Shown here: positions 22,050-36,719 of the stretch, piece after piece
Position numbering within the stretch: position 1 is the stretch's first letter
Layout of the letters: every line of letters starts with the position of its first letter
Assembly: GCA_003696625.1 (NCBI GenBank)
Contig: RFGR01000030.1
Span: forward strand, 1 to 36,719
Source: Planctomycetota bacterium
GTDB taxonomy: Bacteria; Planctomycetota; UBA1135
Reading direction: 5' to 3'
Length of the DNA stretch: 36,719 nt
Translations under genes and position numbers: made by a program
The notes under the pieces: model-generated
Databases searched by the model: none
Seen by the model: the letters and a program-made list of their open reading frames with translations, nothing else
Told to the model about the DNA's origin: nothing

Positions 22050-23222
22050 ATGGCCCAATACCAGATGCCGGACCACACCATCCCGTTCGACCGCCTTGCC
22101 GAGGGGCTCACCCCCGACACCTTCGACGACCAGGCCCCGGGTTTGGTCGCCAGACTCGATCGCCGGCGGGTGCGGGTGGTGTTCGACTTCCCCCGCAAGC
22201 CGTTGCCGCTCCGCTCCGGCCGGAGGGTGGACCCGATGGGCTTCTACCGGCAAGAGGTCCTCCGGATTCCGGCGATGGATCGCGAGGAGGAGATCCGCTT
22301 CTGCATGGCCCTTGAGATCCTCTGGCGGCGGCTGCAGAAGGCGCGCCGGGCCGCCGGCTTCTCGGCCGAGGACGCCGCCCGCTACCCCAGCGTCGCCTGC
22401 GACGACTGCCCGAACTGTCCGCCGGGCCGCGAGCGCGCCTTCGCCGGCTGCATCCGCCGCGATCTCGCTCCGGCCAAACGCGAGCGGCTGCGCCTCCGCC
22501 ACGAGGAGTTCGTCACCGCCCGCAACGAACTGATCGCCCGCAACCTGAACATCGTCTTCCGCCTGCTCGACCGCTATCGCAAGGTCTCGGTGGCGCCCGA
22601 GGACATGATCCAGGAGGCCAACCTCAGCCTCTTCCGGGCAGTCGAAGGCTTCGACTTCCGGCGCGGTGTCCGCTTCAAGACCTACGCCGGCTACTGGGTC
22701 AACCAGGCCTTCTTGAACGCGATCTACAACCAGAGCCGCGTCGTCCGGGTTCCGGCCTACATCCAGAAGGCGATGAAGAAGATCCACGACGCCCGCGGCG
22801 CGGTCGCCGACCTGGCCGATACGGCCGGGCTGGCCGAGGCCACCGGCGTCGCCCCGGAACTGGTCCAGACCGCCATCGCCGGCAACCGCTTCACCCTTTC
22901 GCTCGACAAGACGGTGGACGGCGAGTCCGGCGCCCGCATGGTCGATTTGATCGAAGGCGGGGAGGAACCGGAGAAGCTGCCCGATCTCGGCGAGCGGGCC
23001 CGTCTGGGCGAGCTGCTCGAGCAGGCCTTCGCCGAGCTGAACGAGCGCGAGCGACGGGTCCTCCAGCTCCGCTACGGGCTCGGCACCGGCAAGCCGGCCA
23101 CCCTGGCCGCGGTCGGCCAGGAACTCGGGATCAGCCTCGAGCGGGTCCGGCAGATCCAGAAGGGAGCGCTGGAGAAGCTGCGGCTGGGCGGCTCCTCGCA
23201 GTTGTTGGAACAATTCGCCTGA
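22050..23222 (+). CDS. RNA polymerase sigma-70 factor with a four-cysteine cluster
   Basis: This 390-residue group 1/2-type sigma factor has region 1.2 (FYRQEVLRIPAMDREEEIRF), region 2 (ARNLNIVFRLLDRY; PEDMIQEANLSLFRAVEGFDFRRG; FKTYAGYWVNQAF), region 3, and region 4 (LNERERRVLQLRYGLG; LAAVGQELGISLERVRQIQ). Between regions 1.2 and 2 lies an unusual CX2CX2CX10C cluster (C117, C120, C123, C134), which may bind zinc or an iron-sulfur cluster. TAGAAT (22044-22049) touches the ATG at 22050; if it is the -10, the real start is probably the next Met at 22065 (MPDHTIPFDRL). It could be a housekeeping-like or an alternative sigma; the N-terminus is short for RpoD. Confidence 0.9.
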   Translation: MAQYQMPDHTIPFDRLAEGLTPDTFDDQAPGLVARLDRRRVRVVFDFPRKPLPLRSGRRVDPMGFYRQEVLRIPAMDREEEIRFCMALEILWRRLQKARRAAGFSAEDAARYPSVACDDCPNCPPGRERAFAGCIRRDLAPAKRERLRLRHEEFVTARNELIARNLNIVFRLLDRYRKVSVAPEDMIQEANLSLFRAVEGFDFRRGVRFKTYAGYWVNQAFLNAIYNQSRVVRVPAYIQKAMKKIHDARGAVADLADTAGLAEATGVAPELVQTAIAGNRFTLSLDKTVDGESGARMVDLIEGGEEPEKLPDLGERARLGELLEQAFAELNERERRVLQLRYGLGTGKPATLAAVGQELGISLERVRQIQKGALEKLRLGGSSQLLEQFA

Positions 23223-23225
23223 GCG

Positions 23226-23239
23226 GCCCCGTTCGGGGC
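23226..23239 (+). terminator. Short GC hairpin after the sigma gene
   Basis: GCCCC (23226-23230) and GGGGC (23235-23239) form a 5-bp stem with a GTTC loop just after the sigma stop codon. The CAGAAT hexamer of the next gene begins at its last base. It is too short to be a confident terminator. Confidence 0.3.
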
Positions 23240-23244
23240 AGAAT
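23239..23244 (+). promoter_or_regulatory. -10-like CAGAAT for the thioredoxin-like gene
   Basis: CAGAAT ends 6 bases before the GTG at 23251, the spacing of a leaderless transcript. No Shine-Dalgarno sequence is present. Confidence 0.35.
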
Positions 23245-23250
23245 GGCCCC

Positions 23251-24165
23251 GTGCGGATCGCTCTCCTGTTCGCCCTCTTTCCCGGCGCCCTCGCGCCGCT
23301 GCCCGCCGCTCAGCAGGGTGGCGACGAGCCGGCGCCGATCTACGACGAGACCGCCGACGCCGCGGCCCTGATCCAGGATGCGGTCGCCCGCGCCGCCCAC
23401 GCCAACAAGCGGGTCCTGATCGTCTGGGGCGGCGACTGGTGCGTCTGGTGCCGACGCCTTCACCACACTCTCGAGCGAGGAGAACTGGCTCGGGAGATTC
23501 TCTACGAGTACGAGCTGGTGCCGGTCGATTCCCGGAGCAACGCCGAGCTGGCCTCCCGCTACGGCGCCGACCTCGCCAAGGGAGTGCCGTTCCTCACCGT
23601 CCTCGACGGCCGGGGCCGAGTGTTGGCCAACCAGGAGACCGGCGTCTTCGAACAGGGCGAGGGCCACGACCCGGCCCCGATCCTGAACTTCCTGCGCCGC
23701 TGGGAGGCGCCGCCGCTGGACGCGGTCCGGCTCTACGCCGAGGCCCGGGTCCGGGCCGCCCGGGAAGGCAAACGGATCCTGATCCGCTTCGGCGCTCCGT
23801 GGTGAGGCTGGTGCCACCGGCTCGAGGAGTTCCTCGAGCGCCCGGAAATCGCTTCGCTGCTGGCCCGCGACTACGTCCCGGTCGAGATCGACATCGACCG
23901 GATGCTGAAGGCCAAGGCGCTGGAGAGGTCGTTCCGGGGCGACCGTGGTGGCGGCATCCCCTGGTACGCGATCGTCACGGCCGGCGGCCGGGTCCTGGCC
24001 ACCGCCGACGGCCCCCGGGGCAACGTCGGCTGCCCGGTGACGGCGGAGGAGATCGCCCACTTCATGGCCACCCTCCGATCGACCCGACAGCGGCTCGGTG
24101 ACGCCGAGCTGACCCGGATCGAGCAGGCCTTGCTTGAGAACGGCCGGCGCCTGCGCGGCGGCTGA
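23251..24165 (+). CDS. Exported tandem thioredoxin-like protein, candidate selenoprotein (UXXC, TGA = Sec185)
   Basis: Read through one in-frame TGA (23803-23805), this is a 304-residue exported protein with a signal peptide (RIALLFALFPGALAPLPAA) and two thioredoxin-like (Thioredoxin_7-type) domains. Domain 1 has DWCVWCRRL (C64, C67). Domain 2 reads APW-TGA-GWCHRL, so the TGA sits exactly at the first Cys of CXXC, giving U185-G-W-C188. The same frame stays coding for 119 more codons (PEIASLLARDYVPVEIDID; IPWYAIVTAGGRVL), with the cis-Pro loop present. A perfect inverted repeat at 23820-23839, 14 bases after the TGA, has a GU-containing apical loop as bacterial SECIS elements do. The GTG start follows CAGAAT by 6 bases. 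The alternative is a nonsense mutation or sequencing error. Confidence 0.72.
23806..23845 (+). promoter_or_regulatory. Candidate bacterial SECIS element
   Basis: GCTCGAGGA (23820-23828) and TCCTCGAGC (23831-23839) are perfect complements, best drawn as an 8-bp stem with an AGUU loop. The apical loop begins about 22 bases after the TGA and has G in its first two positions, within the general rules known for bacterial SECIS. Caution: the repeat comes from the codons for LEEFLE with CTC-GAG usage common in this genome, so it could arise by chance. A competing 5-bp hairpin lies at 23807-23821. Confidence 0.45.
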
Positions 24166-24185: not shown

Positions 24186-25427
24186 TCAGCGCACCTCGGC
24201 GTGGCAGCTGATGCAGAGATCCCGCCGGCCGTCCTTGCGGGTGTGGAAGGCGAATTCGTCGGTGCCGTGCGGCTGGTGGCAGGTGATGCACTGCATCCGG
24301 CCGTCCCGGCCGAGCGGCAGGTCCGTGGGCCAGGCGTAGCCACCGGTGGTCTTCGGCCGCACCAGCGGGTGCGAGGACCCGTGGGCGTTGGCGCCTGGGT
24401 GGCAGCTCAGGCAGGCGGTAGTGCCGGCGTACTCGAGCGGGGCCAGGTCGGGGTGGGGCACCTTGCCCGGGCGGCCGGCCGTGCCGGTCGCCGCCGCCGG
24501 CAGATCCTCGGCGAGGTCGGCGAAACGGACCTGCCCGCCGCCGCTCTCGCGTTCGCGGGCGGCCCGCTCGGCCTCGATCTCGGCCGGAGCCGGGGCTCGA
24601 ACCTCGAGCCGGACCGGGTCCGGGGTCAGGATCTCGAGCCAGCCGTCGCCGCCGGTGGACGCCACCACCAGGTTGGCCCGCACCAACGGCGCCACCGGTC
24701 CGCTCGTCCCAAGATGGGCGGAGGCGTCGGCGATCCGGACCTCGTGGATGCTGCGGCCGCCGTCGTGCGACCAGACCTCGACCGGCAGGGTCTCCGGCGG
24801 CTCGTGCCCGAGCGGCAGACGGAGAGACAACTCCGAACTGTAGTACCGGTCGCCGGTGCCGCTGGCGCGGCCGCCCCAGGCCACCCGCGCGCCGATCGGG
24901 CCGTCGGCGGTCAGGTGCACCACCGCGACCACCCCCAGCGCCGACTGCCGGCGCTCGACCTCGATGCGGGGCTCCCGGGAGGCCTCGGCGACGGGACGGT
25001 CCCCCCGCTCCAGCGGCACCATCTGCCAGGGATCGCGGCCGACCCGGACCCAAACATACTCCGCCCGATCCAGCAGCGCGGGATCGACCGCCGCCCCGCG
25101 GTGGCGGGCCGGGGCCGGATCCCGGAGCAGCAGCGGTCGCTGGGCGATGAACTGCTCCTCGGGCCGGAACTCGCTCCGCTCGCGGTCCATGAAGTTCGGC
25201 GGCGCCACCGGCGTGGCGTCGAACGGGTTCGAGGCCAGATCCAGGCGCGAGCGCTGGACGTGGCAGGAGGTGCACTTTCCTTGGTCGAACGGTGCGTGGC
25301 CGTGCAGGCGGCTGCCCGGCTCCGGCTGATGGCAGGAGATGCAGGTGTCCGGACCTGATTCGTCCGAGACTTGGAGATTCGGGGCCGCAAAGGCGACGCC
25401 GGCGCTGAGGAGGAGGGGAACCAGCAT
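24186..25427 (-). CDS. Pentaheme c-type cytochrome with central beta domain
   Basis: This 413-residue exported protein (signal MLVPLLLSAGVAFAA) has five CXXCH sites: CISCH and CTSCH near the N-terminus, then CLSCH, CITCH and CISCH in the last ~80 residues. Between them lies a region of roughly 250 residues with no heme motif and a beta-rich, Ig- or DOMON-like appearance (EYVWVRVGRDPWQMVPLERG; VEVWSHDGG). It probably works in the periplasm or at the surface as a domain-separated electron carrier. GGAGAGGACCTCCC precedes the ATG. It is the last gene of the minus-strand cytochrome series and is convergent, with a 20-base gap, with the candidate selenoprotein. Confidence 0.85.
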   Translation of the reverse strand: MLVPLLLSAGVAFAAPNLQVSDESGPDTCISCHQPEPGSRLHGHAPFDQGKCTSCHVQRSRLDLASNPFDATPVAPPNFMDRERSEFRPEEQFIAQRPLLLRDPAPARHRGAAVDPALLDRAEYVWVRVGRDPWQMVPLERGDRPVAEASREPRIEVERRQSALGVVAVVHLTADGPIGARVAWGGRASGTGDRYYSSELSLRLPLGHEPPETLPVEVWSHDGGRSIHEVRIADASAHLGTSGPVAPLVRANLVVASTGGDGWLEILTPDPVRLEVRAPAPAEIEAERAARERESGGGQVRFADLAEDLPAAATGTAGRPGKVPHPDLAPLEYAGTTACLSCHPGANAHGSSHPLVRPKTTGGYAWPTDLPLGRDGRMQCITCHQPHGTDEFAFHTRKDGRRDLCISCHAEVR

Positions 25428-25485
25428 GGGAGGTCCTCTCCTCTGCGGCCGGCGCGACCCGGACTTGAACCCGAATGACCCTCCC

Positions 25486-25511
25486 GGCCGCCGGCGCGGC
25501 GGCCGGCGGCC
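25486..25511 (-). terminator. Strong GC stem-loop between the barrel and pentaheme genes
   Basis: GGCCGCCGG (25486-25494) and CCGGCGGCC (25503-25511) form a perfect 9-bp stem with an 8-base loop in the 108-base gap. No T-run follows on the minus strand, so it may attenuate or protect the mRNA rather than fully stop transcription. Confidence 0.45.
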
Positions 25512-25535
25512 CCCGGCACAGCCGGTGGGCGGAGG

Positions 25536-27686
25536 TCAGAAGTCCGCGCTCAGGGTCAGGGAGACGCTCCGGACCCGTTCCGTGGTCCCGGCCGATCCGG
25601 CCCGACTGGTCCAGATCGTGGTCAGATCGAGATAGGTGGTCTTCCGCAGGGTCCAGCGGACTTGGGCGAAGGTGGTTTCGGTCGGCCCGAGCAGGACGCC
25701 CCCGGTCTCGTGGCGCACGTCGAGCTGGACCAGGAGCTGCCCGCCGGCGAAGGGCAGCCAGTCCAGCCGATAGCGCTGGGTCAGTCCGGTGTTGGTCAGG
25801 GCCTGCGACCAGTACTCGAGATCGGCGACCACGGTCAGCAGCTCCGAGGGTCGATAGACGAACTCGGCGCCGGTCATCTGGCTGTCGGTGTCGGTCACGC
25901 CGACCCCGACTTCACGAATCTGGAGGAGGTCGATCTGCTCCTCGAGCAGCACCTCCAGGTCCTCGCGGACCGGGGCGTGGACCGAGGCCAGCAGGGAATC
26001 CCGGTCGGAGCGGCGGTCGGCCAGAAACTCCTGCTGGTGGGCCCGGGTGGCCTGCAGCGAGGCCAGGATGTCGTGGGCGAAGTTGGCCGAGGCCCGGCCG
26101 GTGAGGGCGTCGTTCCGGGCGTAGGGGCGCTGATCCCGGTCCTCCTCCCGCCGGGAGAGAGAGACGTCGAAGCTCAGCCGCTCGTTCGGCAGGAAGGAGA
26201 GCGATCCGGTCCGGGTGTCGAGGAGCCGGGAGACGAAGACCGGGTCGTCGTAGTCCTCGTGGCCGGCCTGGGCGCTGGCGGCCAGCCAGTAGAGGGGACG
26301 CCAGGTCGTGTTCAGGTTGACACGGAGGGCGTTCTCGTCGCGGGTCAGCCGGCCTTGGTCCCGGCGCTCGGTGCGCCCGACGCTGCCGTCGAGGATCATG
26401 GACCAGGAGTCGCTCGGCCGCAGGGCGAAGGAGAGATCGGCGCGGTCCTGCCGCTCCTTCGAGCCGTTGCCGAGGCCGCCTTGCCGGCCGTAGGCCTGGA
26501 TCTCGCTCACCTCCACCGCCGGCGCCGCCGGCGCATGGGCGGTGTTGACCACCTTGAGATACCGGGAGGCCAGCCCGGCGACGTCGATCTCGAATCGCTG
26601 GCGGCCGGCGTCGTAGCGGAACGGGGCCGAGAAGCGCTCCAGCTTCCAGGACAGATTGTCGTTCGAGCTGTAGACGCTCCACTGGAACTGTCGGGCTTCG
26701 GCCGCGCTCAGGGCGACGTCGGTATAGAGGCGGATCTCGTCCACGGCGACCGGCACCGGCCCTTGATCGAAGCCGATGTTGCGGTCGATGCCGCCGCCCG
26801 AGGCGACGCCGCCGATCGGGACGCCGGCGCCGGCGGCGAGGTTGCCGTCCACGAGCTGGGCGTTGACCGGCAGGGTGCCCAGGGTCGGGGTGTCGTCGAT
26901 CGCGTACAGGCCGGCGGCGAGCGGAATCCGGTCGAGGCCGCCGCGATTGCCGCGTTCCGTGATGTCGTACTGCGAGTGGAGCAGGCCGATCGAGGCGGTG
27001 ACTGTGTTGTCCTCGCTCGCCCAGTCGGCGTTGAGGCCGGCCAGCAGGTCGCGCCGGTCCTGGGTCTGCCGAAGCTGGTGGTCTTCGAGGCCCTGGCGGA
27101 GGATCTCGCCGTAGTAGCTGAAGCCCTCGACGTTGTGCTCGAGGCGGTAGATCGAGCGGGTCTCGATCGAATCCAGGCCGCGGTCGTCCTTGGAGCGGGT
27201 CTGTTCGGACTGGAGGCTGATCTGAGGCAGGTTGGTCGGGTGATAGACCAGCCGGCCGAAGACGTTGTCGCGGATCAGGGTGTTGTCGAAGCCGCCGCCG
27301 GAGAGGGAACTCGAGCGCCGGTCGGCGCTGAGGTTGATGTCGAACAGGGAGCCGTTGCGGTTGAGGTCGACCGACGGCTGGTGGCTGAGAGTGACGCTCC
27401 GCGTCTCCTGGCCGAGCGCCCGACTGGTCGTCGCCCGCCGGATGCTGCGGTCGGAGGCGCGCAGTTCCCAGCCGTCCGACAGCCGCCTGGAGCCGGCGAG
27501 GTCGATCAGGGTGGTGGCTTCGGTGGTGGTGGATTCCTCGGCTCGAGTCTGGCCGAGCACCTGGCGCAGTCGGCCCCGGTCGCCGATGGCGCAGCCGCCG
27601 CCGAGGGCCGCCAGCAAAAGCAGGGCGGCCAGGCCGGCGGGGGCGAACGCCCCCCGCCGCGGCGGGGGAACGGGGGGAGGCTTCAC
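25536..27686 (-). CDS. Outer-membrane beta-barrel protein with lipobox and discoidin-like insert
   Basis: This 716-residue protein is dominated by alternating amphipathic strands (SIGLLHSQYDITERG; SFDVSLSRREEDRDQ; LVQLDVRHETGGVL) and ends SVSLTLSADF with a terminal Phe, as outer-membrane barrels do. The N-terminus is a lipoprotein-type signal (LAALLLLAALGGGC, Cys32). Around residues 305-403 is an insert like an F5/8 type C (discoidin) domain: VDEIRLYTDVALS, FQWSVYSSNDNLSW, ASRYLKVVN, VEVSEIQAYG. Its place between multiheme cytochrome genes suggests the porin of an electron conduit, by analogy with MtrB/PioB and Geobacter OmbB. I see no clear homology to those, so this is inference. Its ATG overlaps the previous stop (ATGA). 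Confidence 0.7.
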   Translation of the reverse strand: MKPPPVPPPRRGAFAPAGLAALLLLAALGGGCAIGDRGRLRQVLGQTRAEESTTTEATTLIDLAGSRRLSDGWELRASDRSIRRATTSRALGQETRSVTLSHQPSVDLNRNGSLFDINLSADRRSSSLSGGGFDNTLIRDNVFGRLVYHPTNLPQISLQSEQTRSKDDRGLDSIETRSIYRLEHNVEGFSYYGEILRQGLEDHQLRQTQDRRDLLAGLNADWASEDNTVTASIGLLHSQYDITERGNRGGLDRIPLAAGLYAIDDTPTLGTLPVNAQLVDGNLAAGAGVPIGGVASGGGIDRNIGFDQGPVPVAVDEIRLYTDVALSAAEARQFQWSVYSSNDNLSWKLERFSAPFRYDAGRQRFEIDVAGLASRYLKVVNTAHAPAAPAVEVSEIQAYGRQGGLGNGSKERQDRADLSFALRPSDSWSMILDGSVGRTERRDQGRLTRDENALRVNLNTTWRPLYWLAASAQAGHEDYDDPVFVSRLLDTRTGSLSFLPNERLSFDVSLSRREEDRDQRPYARNDALTGRASANFAHDILASLQATRAHQQEFLADRRSDRDSLLASVHAPVREDLEVLLEEQIDLLQIREVGVGVTDTDSQMTGAEFVYRPSELLTVVADLEYWSQALTNTGLTQRYRLDWLPFAGGQLLVQLDVRHETGGVLLGPTETTFAQVRWTLRKTTYLDLTTIWTSRAGSAGTTERVRSVSLTLSADF

Positions 27687-29095
27687 TTCAGGGGCAGGCC
27701 GGGCAGGAGGAGGCGGTCAGGGGCTCCCGGGGCCGGGACCAGCGCACGGACCCGAAGCTGGAAACGGTCGATCACCGCCAGGGTCGAGGCACCGGGACAG
27801 GCGGCCCAAATCCGCCGGCCTTCGGGGTCGAGAGCCAGGTCGGCGGCCGCCGCGGGGAGGTCGGTCGGGCGGCTGAGCTGGCCGGTGCCGAGATCGACCG
27901 CGACCAGCGAGGAGGGCTGGGCCAGGGCGACGAAGACGCGGTTTTCCTGCGGATCGAACAACACCGCGCCGAGGCCGGCGCCGACGTGCCAGGACTGTCG
28001 GACCTCGAGCGAGGCGGCGTCGAGGATCTGGAGAACTCCAGCGCGGGAGGAGACCACCGCCAGCCGCTGGCCGTCTTCGTCCAGGTCGAGATCGACCGGA
28101 CCGGCCTCGAGCAGACGGGTCGCGACCCTCTCCTGGCTGTCGGTCGAGAAGACCTGCAGCTCGTTCGCCTCGGGCAACAGGAGGTAGAGCCGGCGCAGGG
28201 CCGACGAGGTGATCGAACGCCCCGGCGCGCGGGTGGTCGGCGTGCGCTCGCCGAGCATCATCGACGGCAGCTCGAAGAAGCTGAGTTCGCGGCGGCCGGC
28301 CATGCTGACAGCGATGCCGGCACCGAGCGGCAGGTGACTGGCCCAGACCGGGCCGCCGCCGGCCGGCAGCCGCCGCTGGTCGCGAATCTCGCCCCGGCTG
28401 AGATCGAAGACCACGACCTCGTCGGTGCTCCGGTCCACCGCCAGGAGTTCGTTCGAGGCCAGCCCCCGGACCAGCCCGACGACGGCGTGGCCGGGCAGCA
28501 ACGTCCGGTGCGCCCGCTGCTGGATCCGGTCGAAGACGCAAACCCCGCCGGAGCGGCCGTCGGCGGCCAGGACCATGTCGAAGGGAAGCAGCGGCTCGGC
28601 CAGCGACAGCGACCAGGCCGGCGAGAAGGTGACCGGCTCCGGGCTCGATCGGGCGAGGTCGAGGTGGAGCAGGAGATCGACGGAGTCCTCGTCCTCGAGC
28701 GAGAGCGGCAGCGGTAGCAGGAGGCTGGCGTTCTCGAGCAACAGCGGCACGCCGCCCTGGTCCGGATCGTCGGACCAGACGTGGTCAAGGACGACGCGGA
28801 GGCCGCGATAGAAGCCGGCCGGCACCCGGCCGGTGGCCAGCCCGCGGTCGCCGGCTCCGAGCGGCACCCGGTTCCGGTCCAGGCCGAGGGCGTACTCGCC
28901 GGCGGCTCCGGCCAGGGTGAGGCCGGCGAAATCCGCGACCCGGCGGCTGGGGCCGCCGGCGACCGCGAGGTGGACGGTGACGGTGGCCCGGCCGCCGCCC
29001 TCGGGCCGGGGAGGCGGCGCCTCCTGCCGCCGGACCGCCGGCGCCGATTCGCAGGCGGCCAGCAGCAGGGCCAGCAGCGCCGAGCAGACCTTCAT
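27683..29095 (-). CDS. Lipoprotein with YVTN-type beta-propeller
   Basis: This 470-residue protein begins with a lipoprotein signal (MKVCSALLALLLAAC, lipobox LAAC, Cys15). After an N-terminal beta domain (TVTVHLAVAGGPS, about residues 30-180) come repeats of a YVTN/WD-like propeller: NELLAVDRSTDEVVVFDL, NELQVFSTDSQERVA, GVLQILDAASLEVRQSW, NRVFVALAQPSSLVAVDL. No heme motif is present. It is probably a surface or periplasmic scaffold for the neighbouring cytochromes. The ATG at 29095 overlaps the preceding stop by 4 bases (ATGA), and its own stop overlaps the barrel gene's ATG in the same way, so the three are tightly coupled. An upstream in-frame start at 29149 would lack the signal peptide. 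Confidence 0.75.
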   Translation of the reverse strand: MKVCSALLALLLAACESAPAVRRQEAPPPRPEGGGRATVTVHLAVAGGPSRRVADFAGLTLAGAAGEYALGLDRNRVPLGAGDRGLATGRVPAGFYRGLRVVLDHVWSDDPDQGGVPLLLENASLLLPLPLSLEDEDSVDLLLHLDLARSSPEPVTFSPAWSLSLAEPLLPFDMVLAADGRSGGVCVFDRIQQRAHRTLLPGHAVVGLVRGLASNELLAVDRSTDEVVVFDLSRGEIRDQRRLPAGGGPVWASHLPLGAGIAVSMAGRRELSFFELPSMMLGERTPTTRAPGRSITSSALRRLYLLLPEANELQVFSTDSQERVATRLLEAGPVDLDLDEDGQRLAVVSSRAGVLQILDAASLEVRQSWHVGAGLGAVLFDPQENRVFVALAQPSSLVAVDLGTGQLSRPTDLPAAAADLALDPEGRRIWAACPGASTLAVIDRFQLRVRALVPAPGAPDRLLLPGLPLK

Positions 29096-30507
29096 CGTCC
29101 GTAGTTCAGGCGGTTGTAGCTCTTGCTGCCGTGGCAGGTCGGCCAGCACTGACCGCCGTTGTTGTTCTGCTGGTACTGGTTCAAGCCGGGATTGGCCCCG
29201 ATCCGGATCAGGCTCGGCAGCGAGTGGGAACCGTGCACCTCGTGGCAGGCGGCGCAGGGCCGTTGCTTCTTGTCCACGTGGAAGGTGTGACCCTTGCTGA
29301 AGGCGGGTCTGTTGAAGCGGCTGTAGCCCTTGATCGTGTCGCTGGCGCCGTCGTTGGCGTAGGTGTCATAGCGGTGGCACTGGAAGCAGATCAGGTCGGG
29401 GGGAGTGATCTGCTTCTGGGTGTTCGCCGGCCAGCTTCCGGCCAACAGCGCCCGCTGGTCGCTGCCGTGCGGCCCGGCCGGAGACTGCGGATCGGGGCTG
29501 CGATGGCAGTCGCTGCACAGCACCACAGACGTGGCGGTCCAGCCGTTCACGAAGGAGCCGGCGCGGATGTTCGGGTCGTTGCCTTGCGCCTCGACCGGAT
29601 GGTAGGAGGGATTGTTCGGGTTGAGTTCGACCGCCAAGTCCTCGGCGCCGACCGGCAGGGTGGTCCAGCCGGAGTGGCACTTGAAGCAGACCTCGTATTC
29701 CTTGGGGCCGCTGAGCAGGTTCTGATCGCCGTCCACCCAGGTGTAGATCGGGCTGGTGCCGGCGGCGCCGTTCGTCACCCGGACCGAAGAGACTCCGCGC
29801 AGCGGCTCGCCGGCCACCGGCGGCTGAGTGCCGCCGGTGTTCTCGCGCGCCGCGTGTGGATTGTGGCAGTCCTCGCACTCGGCGTGCCGGTTGCCGCCGG
29901 CGAAGTTGCCGGGGGTGCCGCCCTCGCCGGCGTCGTGCTTGCCGTCGATGGTCGCGACCGGGTGGGCGTAGGCGCGCTGCAGTTCACCGGCGATGTCGTC
30001 GGCGGCGGGCCCGTTGCCGTCATGGCAGGTCAGGCAGGAGTTCTGCTCTCGGGCCACAGCCATGCGCGGGATCAGGCCGGAGGCGTCGGCGAAGCCGTGC
30101 GGGTCGTGGCAGTTCAGGCACTTGCCCTGGTCACCGGCCGGGCGCGCCGGCGGCACCGGGCCCGGCCAGCGGAAGGCGTTCGAGGTGGCGTGGGCGTTGG
30201 CCGTAGCCTCGCCCTGCCCGAGATAAACCTTCTCGGCGCCGGCGCCGGCGTGGCAGACGAAGCAGAGGTTGTCGTCGTTTGCCATCGGCAGGAGCATGTC
30301 GTGGGCCGGCAAACTGGTGCCCTGGTCGCTGGCGTGGGTGTAGTGACACTGGCTGCAGTCGCCGGTTTCGACCCCGGCGCGGCCGGAGACGCCGCGGACC
30401 GGATCACCGTGCAGGGTCAGCTCGAAGGTGCCGCCGAAGTAGGCGGCCGCAGCCGACAGGCCGGCCGAGGCCAGGCCGACGACGGCAAGGGCGGCGACTC
30501 GTTTCAT
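29092..30507 (-). CDS. Nona-/decaheme c-type cytochrome with a C-terminal CX3CH site
   Basis: This 471-residue exported cytochrome (signal MKRVAALAVVGLASAGLSAAAA) has nine CXXCH sites in order: CSQCH, CFVCH, CLNCH, CLTCH, CEDCH, CFKCH, CSDCH, CFQCH, CAACH. A tenth, CWPTCH, has three residues between the cysteines (C454-H459). CX3CH hemes are known in a few multiheme proteins, so ten hemes are possible. Several sites are followed by PH or THAS, the doubled-CXXCH pattern. I use the ATG at 30507 (MKRV), which overlaps the previous gene's stop (ATGA), over the GTG at 30519. Probably the main electron carrier paired with the downstream propeller lipoprotein and barrel. Confidence 0.88.
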   Translation of the reverse strand: MKRVAALAVVGLASAGLSAAAAYFGGTFELTLHGDPVRGVSGRAGVETGDCSQCHYTHASDQGTSLPAHDMLLPMANDDNLCFVCHAGAGAEKVYLGQGEATANAHATSNAFRWPGPVPPARPAGDQGKCLNCHDPHGFADASGLIPRMAVAREQNSCLTCHDGNGPAADDIAGELQRAYAHPVATIDGKHDAGEGGTPGNFAGGNRHAECEDCHNPHAARENTGGTQPPVAGEPLRGVSSVRVTNGAAGTSPIYTWVDGDQNLLSGPKEYEVCFKCHSGWTTLPVGAEDLAVELNPNNPSYHPVEAQGNDPNIRAGSFVNGWTATSVVLCSDCHRSPDPQSPAGPHGSDQRALLAGSWPANTQKQITPPDLICFQCHRYDTYANDGASDTIKGYSRFNRPAFSKGHTFHVDKKQRPCAACHEVHGSHSLPSLIRIGANPGLNQYQQNNNGGQCWPTCHGSKSYNRLNYGR

Positions 30508-31457
30508 TGGTTGTGGCACTGCTGGCAGGTCGAGAGGCGACGGAGGCCGTCGGCGTAGATCAGCGAGTCAACCCGACCGGAGCCGTGCGCCTTGTGGCAG
30601 GACAGGCAGGTCACGCGGTCGTCGCTGCTCGGCACGATGTCGTCGGTCGGGGTCTCGACCCGGACTCGGTTGGTGATCGGGCCGGCCCAGTGGGAGTAGT
30701 CGGCGTGGTCTTTGCCGAAAATGGTCTCCTCGTTCGGGTGGCGCAGCCAGGGGCGGGAAGCGCCGCCTTCCTCGCCGGCGGTCTTGCCGTGGAAGTTGTC
30801 GTGGCAGGAGTTGCAGAACTCGCCCATGCCCGAGCGGTCCTTCAGGTTGGCAGGCACATAGACCTGGGCCGGGTTGCTGCCGTTGGCCGAGACCAGCTCG
30901 TCCACCACCACGACCACGTTGCCGTTGTCGGCGGAACCGGGCGGGTCGAACAGCAGGTTGCGGTAGTTGCTGTTGCCGTGGACGTCGTGGCAGCTCGAGC
31001 ACTCGAGGGAGAAGGACTCCGACGAGCCGGGGGCCTGCAACGGCGAGGCCGGGCGCAGGTCGTGGCCGTGGTCGTTCGGGACGCCGGCGCCGCCGGTGAA
31101 CCAGCCGCCGGCCGGATCGGCCACGTAGCTGACCGGTTCGAGCACGTCCGGCGCCGCCGGGTCGGTGCCGTCGTGGCAGTAGAGGCAAAGCTCGGTGGGC
31201 GAGCCCATCCGCAGCAGGTTGTCCGCCGGCTCGGCCACCCCGTCATAGCGCATCGGCTGTCCGTGCAGCGAGTTGTGGGTGGTGTGGCAGTCGCTGCAGA
31301 CCAGGTTGTCGCCGTGGTGCCAGCCGCCGGCGCGGGGGCCGGCGGCCGGAAAGCCGCCGCCCAGTCCGGCCCGGGGCCGGGCTGGACGGACCGGCTCCTG
31401 CGGCGGCGCCAGCAGGAGCGGAACGGCCAGGGTGGCGAGGAGCAAGGACATGGGCAA
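30504..31457 (-). CDS. OmcS-like hexaheme c-type cytochrome (copy 2)
   Basis: This 317-residue exported cytochrome has six CXXCH sites: CSDCHTTHNS, CLYCH, CSSCHDVHG, CNSCHDNFH, CLSCHKAHGSG, CQQCH. Order and surroundings match what I recall of Geobacter OmcS: first site followed by THNS, third by PHG-type His, a WC/FC-x2-CH-x2-H fourth site, then LRHP, then CLSCHxAHxSG with a short C-terminal site. OmcS polymerises into conductive filaments, so this may be a filament-forming or related cytochrome. The start is either TTG at 31457 (AGGA 6 bases upstream) or ATG at 31451. It begins a coupled operon with the next three genes and is a paralogue of the hexaheme gene upstream. Confidence 0.85.
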   Translation of the reverse strand: MPMSLLLATLAVPLLLAPPQEPVRPARPRAGLGGGFPAAGPRAGGWHHGDNLVCSDCHTTHNSLHGQPMRYDGVAEPADNLLRMGSPTELCLYCHDGTDPAAPDVLEPVSYVADPAGGWFTGGAGVPNDHGHDLRPASPLQAPGSSESFSLECSSCHDVHGNSNYRNLLFDPPGSADNGNVVVVVDELVSANGSNPAQVYVPANLKDRSGMGEFCNSCHDNFHGKTAGEEGGASRPWLRHPNEETIFGKDHADYSHWAGPITNRVRVETPTDDIVPSSDDRVTCLSCHKAHGSGRVDSLIYADGLRRLSTCQQCHNQ

Positions 31458-31531
31458 GATCTTTCCTAGCTCTCCGCGCCGATCAGTGCCAGTCGCTTTG
31501 AGCCTGGGAAGCGGCTGTCGATAGCTACGAC

Positions 31532-31558
31532 GAGGCCCCCGGCATCACCGGGGGCCTC
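31532..31558 (-). terminator. Strong hairpin between the two OmcS-like genes
   Basis: GAGGCCCCCGG (31532-31542) and CCGGGGGCCTC (31548-31558) form a perfect 11-bp stem with a 5-base loop, 27 bases after the stop of the first hexaheme gene. The T-run is lacking. It is the best terminator-like structure in the window and may lower expression of the downstream operon. Confidence 0.65.
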
Positions 31559-31584
31559 GCGCTCAGGAGTTCAGCTCAGCGGGA

Positions 31585-32643
31585 TCAGCTCCCCTGGACG
31601 TGGCACTGACCGCAGAGGGCCTCCTTCTGGGTGGCGTCGGTGTCGCCGTTCTCGGTGATCGTACCGGTGCCGCTCATCCAGATCAGGCCGAAAGCGTTGC
31701 CGTTGCCGTGCGACTTGTGGCAGGACATGCAGCTCGGAGTGATGTCGGCAGCCGAGCCGTCCCAGACGCCGCTGGCGGACATGACCTTGACGTGGTTGGT
31801 GTGGCCGGCGAAGACGGCGAGGCTGGAGTGGCCGCCGCCGAGAGCGCCGATGTCGACCCCGGCGACCGGGTGCCGGTGGAACTCCTCGTAGGCGGAGCCG
31901 GTGGCCACGCCGCCGACTTCCGTGCCGCCCGGAGCGCCGTAGAAGTTGGTGTGGCAGCCGCCGCACCACTTGCCGTAGGTCGAGGCGTTGGTGTCCGGCT
32001 CGTTGTAGTTGATGTCGTTGAAGTCGTAGGAGTTGGCCGCGGTCTCGAAGACGTCCAGCGCCAGGTTGTTGGTGCCGATGGCGTAGGTGACCTGGGCGTA
32101 GGCGAAGCCGGTGCCGCCCGGATCCATCTTCATGTTCCGGTAGGTGTTGACGCCGCCGGCGTAGCCGTGCTGGTTGTGGCAGTTGACGCAGTTGAGGCCG
32201 TGGCCGGTGCCGTTGTCATCCTCGGGCTTCCAGGTGCCGCCCGGAGCGGTGTCGAGGGTGTCCAGGGTGTGGCCGGTGGCCGGTTGGCCGATGACGCCGT
32301 CCCGGTTCAGGAAGCCGGCGTTCCGGACGATGCCCGGGTACTTGCCGCCGTTGGCGTCGAGGACGTCGGGGGCGACGGAGCTCTGGTCGTGGCAGCTCAG
32401 GCAGAGGTCGTTGACCTCGGCGCGCAGCAGGTACTCGTGCGGAGTGGTGTCCGGAGTGAGGAAGAAGCCGGAGCCGTCCGGGTTGTAGCCGTGCTGCTGC
32501 GAAGCGTGCATGACGTGGCAGTCACTGCAGATCAGGGTGGCGCCGGTGTGGAAGTCACCGGTCGTATCCCCGACCGTGGCCGCCGGAGCCAGCAGGAGCC
32601 CGAGGGGCAGGCTGGCGAGGAGGACCTTCGTTGCGAGGTGCAT
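31585..32643 (-). CDS. OmcS-like hexaheme c-type cytochrome (copy 1)
   Basis: This 352-residue exported cytochrome (signal MHLATKVLLASLPLGLLLAPAA) has six sites in the OmcS order: CSDCHVMHAS, CLSCH, CVNCHNQHG, WCGGCHTNF, CMSCHKSHGNG, CGQCH, with the conserved HRHP segment between sites four and five. Loops are rich in Gly, Asn, Thr and aromatic residues, more so than in copy 2, as is common in abundant extracellular or filament cytochromes. The ATG is preceded by AAGGGAAACC, a good Shine-Dalgarno. It appears to be transcribed alone, between a candidate promoter at 32785-32812 and the terminator at 31532-31558, which suits a highly expressed product. Filament formation is inference. Confidence 0.88.
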   Translation of the reverse strand: MHLATKVLLASLPLGLLLAPAATVGDTTGDFHTGATLICSDCHVMHASQQHGYNPDGSGFFLTPDTTPHEYLLRAEVNDLCLSCHDQSSVAPDVLDANGGKYPGIVRNAGFLNRDGVIGQPATGHTLDTLDTAPGGTWKPEDDNGTGHGLNCVNCHNQHGYAGGVNTYRNMKMDPGGTGFAYAQVTYAIGTNNLALDVFETAANSYDFNDINYNEPDTNASTYGKWCGGCHTNFYGAPGGTEVGGVATGSAYEEFHRHPVAGVDIGALGGGHSSLAVFAGHTNHVKVMSASGVWDGSAADITPSCMSCHKSHGNGNAFGLIWMSGTGTITENGDTDATQKEALCGQCHVQGS

Positions 32644-32878
32644 GGTTTCCCTTGTTGCTGGAGGAGGTTGGTTGAGCGGGGAGCCCGGGTGCGATGGGGG
32701 AAGGCCATGCCCCGGAGGCGGAACTCCCAGAGATCAGCCAGCGGCCGGTTGCTTGGAGAAGCGGGGACCAAGCGCTGGCCCTCTTAGATAAGTTCTTGCT
32801 AAAGTCGGCCAAGGGGAGTTCTCGGACATTTTGTGACGGAACTGTGGCAGTAAAAACTCCGACGCGCGGCCGAAAACC
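32644..32878 (-). promoter_or_regulatory. Promoter and leader region of the first OmcS-like gene
   Basis: On the minus strand TTGGCC (32812-32807) and TATCTA (32790-32785), 16 bases apart, are a moderate -35/-10 pair, giving a leader of about 135 bases. The surrounding 90 bases are notably AT-richer. I looked for a c-di-GMP/cGAMP (GEMM) riboswitch in the leader and did not see its conserved GCAAAGC core. Confidence 0.4.
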
Positions 32879-33979
32879 TTAATCCAGACCGAACGGGTCG
32901 GCCGAGAAGCCCAAAGATTTCGGCACTTCGCCGAGGAGGGAATCTTCTTTCCCGGATGGGGCGCCCGGCGGCAAGTTCTTGCGCACCTCCCGAAAGAACT
33001 CGAAGGCCTGGATCCGGCCCGTGCCCTTCTCGGCCACGTAGAGGATCTGGCCGTCGCCGGCTGCCAGGTCCACCGGTCGGTAGGTGTCGCCGGGGCGGGT
33101 TCCCAGTCCCCCGAACTGGAACAGGAACTTGCCCATCGAGTCGAAGACCTTCACTGCGTGCTGGATCGCGTCGCAGACGACCACCAAACCGGCCGGGGTC
33201 ACAGCGATCGCAGCCGGGGCCGAGAAGTTCATCTTGCCGTCGGCGTGGCGACCCCAGCCGAACTGGTACTCGCGGTCCGAGGCCCGAAAGGCCTGGACGA
33301 CGAAAGCGTCGCGGCTGCCCGGCGGCGGGGTTCCCCGCTCGAGGACGTAGAGCAGGCTGCCGTCCGGCGACCAGGCCGCCCCGGAGGGGGAGGAAAACCG
33401 GCCCCGACCGTAGCCCTTCCGGCCCAGCCGCCAGCGTAGGGCGCCGCTGTCCGCCTCCAGGCAGAGGACCTGGCCGGCCTCGGCGTCGCCGACCAGGATC
33501 GAGCCGTCCGGTGCCAGATCCAGGAAACTGAGGTTGGCCCGCCCGGTGGCCCCGGGAACCTCGATGTCGTCGAGCCAGTCGCCGCGGTAGTTGAAGCGGC
33601 GCAGGGCGCCGACTCGGGCGAAGGTGACCCAGATCCGGCCTTCGAGATCGACCACCAAGTTGCCCGGATTCCGCATCGCCTGCGGCCCGCCGAAGGCGAA
33701 CTTCGGGAACAGGTCGGGTGTGAACATCCCCGCCCGCCCCTGGCGCTGATCGAGGGCGACGACCTCGTGGGCGACCCGGTCGTAGGCGACCCCGGCCAGG
33801 TCCTCGAACCGGCCCTCGAACAGCCACGACCAGGCCGAGGTCAGGGGCCGGACGGTCCAGACGATCTCGTTTTCGAAGGCGCTGCGGGTGCGGGTGCCGC
33901 CCTCCTGGGCGGCGAGGCCGCCGGCGGCCAGGGCCAGGAAGGCCGCGGCTACTGCAGGACGTCGTGACAAGAGACGCAC
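32879..33979 (-). CDS. Exported NHL-repeat beta-propeller protein
   Basis: This 366-residue protein has a signal peptide (MRLLSRRPAVAAAFLALAAGGLAA) and NHL-type repeats typical of a six-bladed propeller: AMRNPGNLVVDLEGRIWV, ANLSFLDLAPDGSILVGD, FSSPSGAAWSPDGSLLYV, FSAPAAIAVTPAGLVVV, YRPVDLAAGDGQILYVAEKG. No heme site is present. NHL proteins often sit beside multiheme cytochromes in Geobacter-like genomes, presumably as assembly or surface partners. I choose the GTG at 33979, because it begins the signal peptide; it lies inside the 16-heme gene (31-base overlap), indicating coupling. Further upstream the frame is only a shadow of the cytochrome. Confidence 0.8.
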   Translation of the reverse strand: MRLLSRRPAVAAAFLALAAGGLAAQEGGTRTRSAFENEIVWTVRPLTSAWSWLFEGRFEDLAGVAYDRVAHEVVALDQRQGRAGMFTPDLFPKFAFGGPQAMRNPGNLVVDLEGRIWVTFARVGALRRFNYRGDWLDDIEVPGATGRANLSFLDLAPDGSILVGDAEAGQVLCLEADSGALRWRLGRKGYGRGRFSSPSGAAWSPDGSLLYVLERGTPPPGSRDAFVVQAFRASDREYQFGWGRHADGKMNFSAPAAIAVTPAGLVVVCDAIQHAVKVFDSMGKFLFQFGGLGTRPGDTYRPVDLAAGDGQILYVAEKGTGRIQAFEFFREVRKNLPPGAPSGKEDSLLGEVPKSLGFSADPFGLD

Positions 33980-35241
33980 AGATCCCGGCGCGGGTCGTCC
34001 CGGAGGAAGAAGGCGTGCTGCGTGCCGTGCGGATCGTGGCAGGACAGGCAGTCGACCGGCAGACCGTTCCGCGGGTCGATCACGTCCTCGCCCATCGGGT
34101 GGGAGCGCATCTGCAGGTTGGAGTGTCCCTCGTGGCAGACCGCGCAGGTGCCGATGATGCTGGCCCGGATCAGCTTCGGCTGAGCGGAGGCGTGCGGAGT
34201 GTGGCAGCCGACGCAGTTGCCGTCGTTGTAGCTCAGGTGGCTGGCCGTACTGGCCTCGGCCCGCTGCTTGATTTCGTCGTGACAGCTCAGGCAGACCTCG
34301 CGCGGCTTGGCGGCCAACAGGGCCTGCTGGTCGGAGGCGTGCGGGGTGTGGCAGGCCAGACACATGCCTTCCTCGGCCGGCGCGTGGGCGACGACCTGGT
34401 TCGGCACCTTGGTGACGTCGTCGTGGCAGGTGAAGCAGAGATCCGGCGGCTCGTCGAGGGTGGTCCTGGCGTCCTCGGCCTCGGTGTCGTGACACATGTC
34501 GCAGGCCAGTTCCTCGAACGGCGGGTGCTCGAGGGTGCGGATCAGGGTGGCGTTCGGCGAGTGGTGCGGGGTGTGGCAGGAGGTGCAGTCCAGCTCCGCC
34601 AGCGGCGCGCCCAGGTGCTGCTCGGACAGGTCCTCGTCCTCGAGGTCGTGGCACTGCCCACAGAGTTCGGCGCCCTCGGCCACCACGTTGCCTTCGCCCT
34701 GGCCGGCGTGCGGATCGTGGCAAGCCAGGCAGTCGCCCATCATGAACGGCCCGTGCACCGTGCCTTCCTCGTTCTCGGTGGCGGCGACCAGGTCCTGGTG
34801 GCACTTGCCGCACAGGTCCATGCCTTCGGCCTGAAGGCCGCGCGCCAGCTCCGAGCGGTGGGGGTTGTGGCAGCTCGTGCACTGGCCCTCGGCCGCCGGC
34901 GAGTGGACGAAGGGGGACTCCAGCCGCTGCGGGAAATCGGCGTGGCAGGTGAAGCAGAGACCGCGCAGGTCGCCGGTGAGCAGCGAGCCGTGGCGGCTGG
35001 CGTGGGGGTTGTGGCAGGAGAGGCAGCGGCCTTGTTCGACCGGAGCGTGGACGAACTCCTCGCCTTCCCGGGCCGGACCGACGTGGCCCTCGTGGCACTT
35101 GGCGCAGAGCACGGACTCGTCGGCCGGCAGGCCGAGGCGCGCCCGCTTCTCGACCAGCCCGCCCTCCTCCTGGGCGCCGGCGGCGGCGGCGAGGCCGAGG
35201 ACGGCGAAGACGGCGAGGGAACGGCGCGTAACGTCGATCAC
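33949..35241 (-). CDS. 16-heme c-type cytochrome (doubled CXXCH motifs)
   Basis: This 430-residue exported protein (signal VTRRSLAVFAVLGLAAAAGA) has sixteen CXXCH sites. Two kinds alternate: CxxCHxPH (for example CLSCHNPHASRHGSLL, CLACHDPHAG, CLACHTPHASDQQALL) and a simpler LCxxCH. This is the doubled-CXXCH (Paired_CXXCH) pattern, giving about eight two-heme modules of 45-50 residues in a chain, as expected of a periplasm-spanning or surface electron wire. The GTG at 35241 overlaps the previous stop (GTGA) and has GGAGG 7 bases upstream, which settles the start. The density is about one heme per 26 residues. Confidence 0.9.
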   Translation of the reverse strand: MIDVTRRSLAVFAVLGLAAAAGAQEEGGLVEKRARLGLPADESVLCAKCHEGHVGPAREGEEFVHAPVEQGRCLSCHNPHASRHGSLLTGDLRGLCFTCHADFPQRLESPFVHSPAAEGQCTSCHNPHRSELARGLQAEGMDLCGKCHQDLVAATENEEGTVHGPFMMGDCLACHDPHAGQGEGNVVAEGAELCGQCHDLEDEDLSEQHLGAPLAELDCTSCHTPHHSPNATLIRTLEHPPFEELACDMCHDTEAEDARTTLDEPPDLCFTCHDDVTKVPNQVVAHAPAEEGMCLACHTPHASDQQALLAAKPREVCLSCHDEIKQRAEASTASHLSYNDGNCVGCHTPHASAQPKLIRASIIGTCAVCHEGHSNLQMRSHPMGEDVIDPRNGLPVDCLSCHDPHGTQHAFFLRDDPRRDLCVSCHDVLQ

Positions 35242-36719
35242 TTCTCTTCCTCCAGGTCGTGGCACTGGCTGCAGTCGCCGTTGTTGAACGGCACGTGGAC
35301 CTCGGGCAGCAGCATGCCGCGGCCCTTGCCGCCGTGCTTGTCATGGCAGCTCAGGCAGTCCATGTCGGTGCCGGCCAGGCCGAGGTGCTTCTCGCGGAAC
35401 AGCGAGGTGGTCAACGGATGGCAGTCCGCGCACAGCTCCGGCGGCGCCTTGCGCTCGAGGTGAGGCAGGTTGCTCTGGTGGCCTTCGTGGCACTTCAGAC
35501 AGTCGCCGCGGGTGACGGGGGCGTGGACCGTGTCCTGGCGCGAGGCCTCGTCGTGGATGTCTTGGTGACAAGTCAGGCAGACCTGCTGCGGCGGCCGCCG
35601 CAGCATCGCCAGGTTGGTGCCGCCGTGGGGCAGGTGGCACTGGAGGCACTGGCCTTCGGCCACCGGCCGGTGGGCGACCTCGGCCGCCTCGAGGTCGCGC
35701 ATGGCCGAGGCGTGGCAGCCGAGGCAGACCTCCTCGGCCGGTGCCTTGAGCAGGCTGCCGTGCCGCGAGGAGTGCGGGTCGTGGCAGGACAGGCACAGCT
35801 TCCACTCGACCGGCTCGTGCTTGACCTCGCCGATGGCGTCCGGGACGTGGTTCTTGTGGCAGCTCAGGCAGTTGTCGCCGCCCTTCTGGAGCAGCAGCTT
35901 CTCGTGCTCGGAGCCGTGCGGGTCGTGGCAGGAGGAGCAGGCGCCCATCGCCACCGGCGCGTGCGGGGTGCCGATCGAGATCTCGTCGATCAGCTCCTGG
36001 TGACACTCGGCGCAGAGCTGGTCCTGGCGGGCCTTGAGCAGGCGGGCGATGCCGGTGCCGTGGCCGTCGTGGCAGGTGTCGCACATCTCGGCCGGGGCGT
36101 GCGGAACCTCGGCCTCGTCGATCGCGGCCGCCTTGTCCTCGTGGCAGGTCTCGCAGAGTTCCCGGCCGGGAGCGGCGACCAGCAGCGACTCCTCGTCCGA
36201 GCCGTGTCCGCTGTGGCAGTCCAGGCACTGGCCGGCCAGAACCGGCGCGTGGCCGGCGCGCAGCTCGGAGAGATCGGTGTGGCACTCGGTGCAGGTCACC
36301 CGCGGCACGTCGCGCAGCACCGGCGCCGCCGGGCCGGCGTGTGGGTTGTGGCACTCGAGGCACATGTCCTCGCCGACTCCCATGTGGGTGTTGGCGAGAT
36401 CCTCGCCCGGGACGGACTCGTGACAGGAGCGGCAGGTGCTGCCGGCGTCGCCGGCCTTGAGAGCGGTCGAGGCCTCCTCGTGGCAGGCGTTGCAGTTGCC
36501 GTCGCGGGTGGTCGGGTGCGCCGCCAGGCGCAGACTGGCGTGCTGATCGGCCTGGCCGTGCGAGGCGTGGCACTCGGTGCAGCGGTCGCCGTTCAGCGGA
36601 ATGCCGTCGTGGGCGGCGCTCATGGCGCCGGCGCCGGAGTCGTGGCAGCTCAGGCAGACGCCTCCTTCGACCTGCCGCAGCATGCCGCCGTCGCTGCCGC
36701 CGTGCGGGCGGTGGCAGGT
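35238..36719 (-). CDS. Large multiheme c-type cytochrome, at least 20 hemes (5' end outside the window)
   Basis: At least 493 residues are visible, with twenty complete CXXCH sites and a twenty-first cut at the window edge (the first visible residues are TCHRPHGGS, the tail of a CxTCH motif). The frame is open to the end, so the methionine at 36683 is internal and not the start. Sites alternate between CxxCHxPHG/GHG and LCxxCH, the same doubled-CXXCH modules as in the next gene. The last site, CSQCHDLEEEK, is followed directly by the stop, which overlaps the 16-heme gene's GTG. It is likely periplasmic or surface-exposed and acts with the 16-heme cytochrome and NHL protein. Confidence 0.9.
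   Translation of the reverse strand, partial: TCHRPHGGSDGGMLRQVEGGVCLSCHDSGAGAMSAAHDGIPLNGDRCTECHASHGQADQHASLRLAAHPTTRDGNCNACHEEASTALKAGDAGSTCRSCHESVPGEDLANTHMGVGEDMCLECHNPHAGPAAPVLRDVPRVTCTECHTDLSELRAGHAPVLAGQCLDCHSGHGSDEESLLVAAPGRELCETCHEDKAAAIDEAEVPHAPAEMCDTCHDGHGTGIARLLKARQDQLCAECHQELIDEISIGTPHAPVAMGACSSCHDPHGSEHEKLLLQKGGDNCLSCHKNHVPDAIGEVKHEPVEWKLCLSCHDPHSSRHGSLLKAPAEEVCLGCHASAMRDLEAAEVAHRPVAEGQCLQCHLPHGGTNLAMLRRPPQQVCLTCHQDIHDEASRQDTVHAPVTRGDCLKCHEGHQSNLPHLERKAPPELCADCHPLTTSLFREKHLGLAGTDMDCLSCHDKHGGKGRGMLLPEVHVPFNNGDCSQCHDLEEEK

Follow-up and report, generated by a model that had tools for sequence, protein, structure and literature searches.

The stretch of DNA analysed here (the window; 36,719 nucleotides) comes from a Planctomycetota bacterium. 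At positions 23251-24165 of the plus strand it carries a frame with a single internal stop codon, a TGA at 23803-23805 (codon 185) that lies in the context RFGAPW-TGA-GWCHRLEEF. Read through this codon, the gene has the following features:

23251-24165, plus strand: predicted selenoprotein gene, GTG start, 304 residues plus the terminal TGA (24163-24165)
23251-23310, plus strand: probable N-terminal signal peptide VRIALLFALFPGALAPLPAA, read from the sequence, with similar N-termini in homologues
23338-23700, plus strand: thioredoxin-fold domain 1 (PF13899), from Pfam (9.2e-12 with the first part alone) and the AlphaFold2 model
23440-23451, plus strand: CVWC redox motif of domain 1 (Cys64, Cys67), from sequence and alignment
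23587-23589, plus strand: probable cis-Pro of domain 1 (Pro113), a near-invariant column
23713-24162, plus strand: thioredoxin-fold domain 2 (PF13899), the domain that is conserved and catalytic, from Pfam (1e-21 for the read-through protein, in two stretches), alignment and the AlphaFold2 model
23803-23805, plus strand: TGA predicted to be read as selenocysteine (Sec185), position 1 of UGWC, from the homologue alignment
23812-23814, plus strand: Cys188, predicted resolving Cys of UGWC, an invariant column
23820-23839, plus strand: candidate bSECIS hairpin, stem 23820-23827 with 23832-23839, loop AGUU at 23828-23831
23959-23961, plus strand: probable cis-Pro of domain 2 (Pro237, in GIPW), an invariant column

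Pro113 and Pro237 are residues that we take to be the cis-prolines from what is general knowledge of the thioredoxin fold. Upstream, a gene for a sigma-70-family factor (22050-23222, plus strand) ends 28 bases before the selenoprotein start, and co-transcription is possible. A short GC-rich inverted repeat, GCCCCGTTCGGGGC, occupies 23220-23250 directly before the GTG and may act as a terminator or in the control of translation.

The encoded protein belongs to the Thioredoxin_7 family (PF13899), since the read-through protein scores 77.2 bits against a gathering cut-off of 27. The part after the TGA reaches only 0.022 in Pfam when it is searched alone, because the TGA splits the active-site motif. 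In an AlphaFold2 model built from 74 sequences (pLDDT 96.9; pTM 0.91) the secondary structure corresponds to two successive thioredoxin folds. The active-site contexts are GDWCVWC in domain 1 and APW-TGA-GWC in domain 2.

More than 90 Planctomycetota proteins are homologous over the whole length of the gene, on both sides of the internal TGA. In about 80 homologues a cysteine (APWCGWC) is aligned with codon 185, while a TGA is found at exactly this position in approximately 29 distinct sequences from several families, two of them from L030; a phylum-wide search also recovered TGA members beyond the order. The nearest TGA relative, L022, is 53% identical. Treating U and C alike in building the tree, at least seven changes between the Cys and Sec states are needed at this site. 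The column of Cys188 is invariant among the aligned homologues, and the domain 2 motif is present in every full-length relative, whereas the CXXC of domain 1 has been lost in many. Judged from this alignment, the conserved active site is that of domain 2. The initial annotation had placed the TGA on a redox cysteine, the first of the second CXXC, in a secreted protein of two thioredoxin-like domains, and had described the frame as continuing with a thioredoxin-like half to 24165. Both statements are borne out by the alignment, in which the position holds either Cys or TGA and the downstream half is homologous up to the terminal stop codon. The open frame of 119 codons after the TGA is weak evidence when taken alone, because about 10% of random stretches of this length stay open at 71% GC. 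On homology and the conserved hairpin described below, the downstream frame is nevertheless judged to be beyond chance. An apparent TGA site in L110 was discarded, as the frame lies outside the homologous gene. A homologue match in genome G230 (L188) contains one in-frame TAG, which a simple search placed away from the APWxxWC motif.

Selenocysteine insertion in bacteria depends on a hairpin for which a published model gives a loop of 3-9 nt, a G within the first two loop positions and a distance of 16-37 nt from the UGA (PMC13188914). The hairpin of the window, GCUCGAGG-AGUU-CCUCGAGC, agrees with this model in loop size, loop G and distance: the 8-bp stem starts 14 nt and the tetraloop 22 nt after the UGA. 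The initial annotation had recognized an inverted repeat with a GU loop at a SECIS-like distance; the distance stands, but a loop of two nucleotides cannot close, and the 8-bp stem with its AGUU tetraloop takes its place. Counting the window, 25 distinct TGA relatives have a near-identical hairpin at the same distance, and the Cys relatives lack it. Hairpin strength at each site was measured against 500 synonymous recodings, a comparison chosen because codons can vary while the protein remains unchanged. In TGA homologues (n=21) the hairpin is stronger than in the recodings (median p 0.024), whereas in Cys homologues (n=81) it is not (median p 0.66); the Mann-Whitney p of 3e-11 for this difference ignores relatedness and is descriptive only. 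In the TGA genes the codons CTC-GAG-GAG-TTC-CTC show almost no variation and are used above background. The pair that closes the loop is A-U instead of G-C in L042 and L049, through changes on both sides. A covariation count on the hairpin gave only two pairs changed on both sides, because the helix hardly varies. Other UGA sites have other hairpins: the four further sites checked in the same genome (SelD and three WUGPC proteins) use different stems with similar GU or GGU loops, and stems of another sequence, with loops that start with G, are seen in L025 and at domain 2 of L030. No clear hairpin was found in L031 and no standard one at domain 1 of L030. Judged by sequence comparison, the SECIS of the tandem protein is unusually well conserved.

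The genome encodes the machinery that such a site would require. A tRNA-Sec gene (selC; 71.9 bits, anticodon TCA, i.e. UCA), selA (458.8 bits), selD (321 bits) and selB (above the family cut-off) are all present, which were the four genes that the initial annotation had singled out as a check. SelD (L018, contig C38) is itself a selenoprotein with an in-frame TGA at the canonical site CSGUAAKIP, and its gene adjoins that of tRNA-Sec. A search of the genome for the pattern W-TGA-x-x-C returned three further convincing UGA genes (L137, L142 and L158), all TlpA-like with WUGPC. Selenocysteine machinery and selenoproteins have been reported in Planctomycetota before (PMC4807772). Among 61 near relatives, tRNA-Sec is above the cut-off in 56 and selA in 57, carriers of the Cys form included; since nearly all have the machinery, its co-occurrence with the TGA is uninformative. 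Viral and plasmid collections were also searched and yielded nothing useful. What is expected of a bacterial selenoprotein is found here on three counts: a UGA in frame at a functional position where homologues have Cys, a complete set of selA, selB, selC and selD in the genome, and a hairpin that agrees with the bSECIS model. We put the probability that codon 185 is a selenocysteine in a thioredoxin-fold protein at about 0.95, and by comparative standards the predicted mechanism of its insertion is secure. None of the outcomes that the initial annotation had named as fatal to its proposal (lack of sel genes, an assembly error, homologues ending at the TGA) occurred.

Other readings of the TGA have to be weighed against this. 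If it were an ordinary stop codon, the gene would encode a one-domain protein of 184 residues, followed by a remnant or an untranslated stretch. TGA is indeed the usual stop codon here and ends 18 of the 21 window genes examined. However, the downstream half is conserved including its invariant residues, many genomes have a TGA at this same catalytic position, the hairpin is under constraint at the RNA level, and the truncated product would terminate right at the domain 2 active site, so that we regard this reading as very improbable. A reassignment of UGA to Trp (or Cys) in the lineage, which would need no SECIS, would likewise explain why the frame remains open past the TGA. Yet the 21 window genes contain 121 TGG and only this one in-frame TGA next to their 18 TGA terminators, tRNA-Sec, selA, selB and selD are encoded in the genome, and the aligned residue is Cys, not Trp; reassignment is hardly credible. 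A sequencing or assembly error for TGC or TGT, conceivable in a draft assembly of 186 contigs, has a negligible chance of being correct, as the same codon and the same hairpin occur in independently assembled genomes at only about 33-53% protein identity.

The gene product would thus be an exported selenoprotein with two thioredoxin domains. UGA 23803-23805 is predicted to be read by SelB and Sec-tRNA(Sec), directed by the hairpin at 23820-23839, and Sec185 would take the place of the nucleophilic cysteine in the UGWC active site of domain 2. By analogy to thioredoxin-fold UxxC enzymes, Sec185 would attack a disulfide or another oxidised substrate outside the cytoplasm, and Cys188 would then resolve the selenenylsulfide. 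A periplasmic reductase is the most likely role of the protein, with electron flow and substrate inferred. The genome encodes a DsbD transmembrane domain, while VKOR and DsbB were not found in it; this favours the reductive direction, even if an absence from a genome that is 90.5% complete is not firm. The electron source is probably the DsbD-type transporter, which is suggested by its presence, and we give a reductase direction with DsbD as donor about an even chance. The neighbourhood does not help to narrow down the substrate: no shared neighbour was evident among the unannotated ORFs around five TGA relatives, and no conserved gene neighbour points to one.

In a rival version of the same selenoprotein the two domains would form an obligatory relay, with CVWC of domain 1 as the reductant of UGWC in domain 2. 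The pairing of CxxC with UxxC recurs in L022, L025, L031, L170, L174-L176 and L178, and both domains are modelled together at high confidence, which is in line with such a relay. However, many TGA relatives are without a CXXC in domain 1, therefore an obligatory relay cannot hold for the whole family and appears doubtful for the window protein. As many relatives lost this motif and keep domain 2, domain 1 is not essential to the family. In the preferred reading domain 2 is the catalytic unit, and domain 1 may hand electrons to it or may broaden the substrate range.

A specific role in cytochrome c maturation was also considered. Six ORFs at 24186-36683 on the minus strand, with 5-20 CXXCH motifs each, form a dense cluster of multihaem c-type cytochromes next to the gene, and the selenoprotein might reduce these motifs. 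CcmG and ResA are known thioredoxin-fold reductants of apocytochromes. Against it stand the location of the cytochrome genes on the opposite strand and the lack of any multihaem ORF in the 78 homologue loci (0/78, with flanks up to about 5 kb). With the proximity not conserved, we rejected a role deduced from the gene neighbourhood and consider cytochrome maturation improbable.

Several relatives carry more than one predicted selenocysteine. At L030 (1534-2373) a tandem Thioredoxin_7 protein has a TGA at the first cysteine of both CXXC motifs (UGWC and UGWC). L036, L037, L039, L044, L046 and L190 are single open frames in which a TlpA-like UGPC domain is followed by a Thioredoxin_7 UxWC domain, and two selenocysteines are therefore predicted per chain. 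In L045 the Thioredoxin_7 and TlpA-like domains occur in reverse order. It seems likely that Planctomycetota possess a modular class of exported selenoproteins with several domains that has not been catalogued. In this class, Thioredoxin_7 and TlpA-like domains would be shuffled into chains that carry one or two selenocysteines each (CxWC with UGWC, UGWC with UGWC, UGPC with UxWC), and most Thioredoxin_7 sites would have a single, almost invariant SECIS cassette in common, which itself would have dictated the residues LEEFL beside the active site. Standard gene calling stops at the TGA and loses the catalytic half, hence such proteins are probably misannotated in Planctomycetota. The family offers a natural series (Cys/Cys, Cys/Sec, Sec/Sec and lost/Sec) in which the contribution of selenocysteine to an extracytoplasmic thioredoxin can be tested, and its SECIS is so strongly constrained in sequence that a direct dissection is feasible. 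The double-Sec fusions suggest that these little-studied bacteria invest heavily in extracytoplasmic redox chemistry based on selenium.

Several known systems resemble the protein in part. Single-domain disulfide isomerase-like proteins of the Thioredoxin_7 type, such as PDB 3fk8, share fold and motif with each of its domains; 3fk8 is the best sequence match (2.8e-20) and ranks first among the single-domain fold matches listed, with a TM of 0.79 by target length. The window protein differs from this type by having two such domains per chain, the second one with a predicted selenocysteine, and none of the 50 structure matches listed covers the whole tandem (TM by query length at most 0.38). The Trx7/PDZ selenoprotein NF041199 also has a Thioredoxin_7 domain and is a listed selenoprotein (PMC13188914, Table 1; PMC9312934), however its motif is CxxU and it contains a PDZ domain, whereas the window protein has UxxC and reaches 14.3 bits where the cut-off is 300, and is thus not a member. 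The thiol:disulfide interchange selenoprotein of PF13098 shares UxxC in a thioredoxin fold of the superfamily, and PF13098 is a weaker secondary match than PF13899; it is listed with one selenocysteine and without a tandem form. DsbH (NF043050; Thioredox_DsbH, PF03190) is similar in fold and probably also acts reductively in the periplasm, but it is a single domain with a model of 166 positions, and with 44.2 bits against a cut-off of 190 the window protein does not belong to it. Prx-like/TlpA selenoproteins (PF00578; UxxC or UxxU, one or two selenocysteines) are represented in the same genome by the general type of the three WUGPC proteins, and their TlpA-like domain is fused to the Thioredoxin_7 UxWC domain in the relatives described above, whereas the window protein is without it. 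No model of NCBIfam 20.0 is passed by the window protein.

The most comprehensive inventory found, from 2026, lists 119 prokaryotic selenoprotein families, among them many thioredoxin-fold UxxC ones and the Trx7/PDZ family with CxxU (PMC13188914). Neither the tandem Thioredoxin_7 selenoprotein nor the predicted double-Sec relatives are in this inventory; an earlier mention is possible in the supplementary list of PMC4807772, in subscription papers or in preprints. The initial annotation had known of no described family that pairs a CXXC with a UXXC domain in a secreted protein. This is right in so far as the tandem architecture and the double-Sec relatives are uncatalogued (PMC13188914; PMC9312934; NCBIfam 20.0), but too broad in so far as the Cys/Cys version is widespread in Planctomycetota and selenocysteine in thioredoxin folds is common. 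Thus, with its predicted UxxC site in an exported tandem of thioredoxin folds, the protein is a new variant of a principle that is not new.
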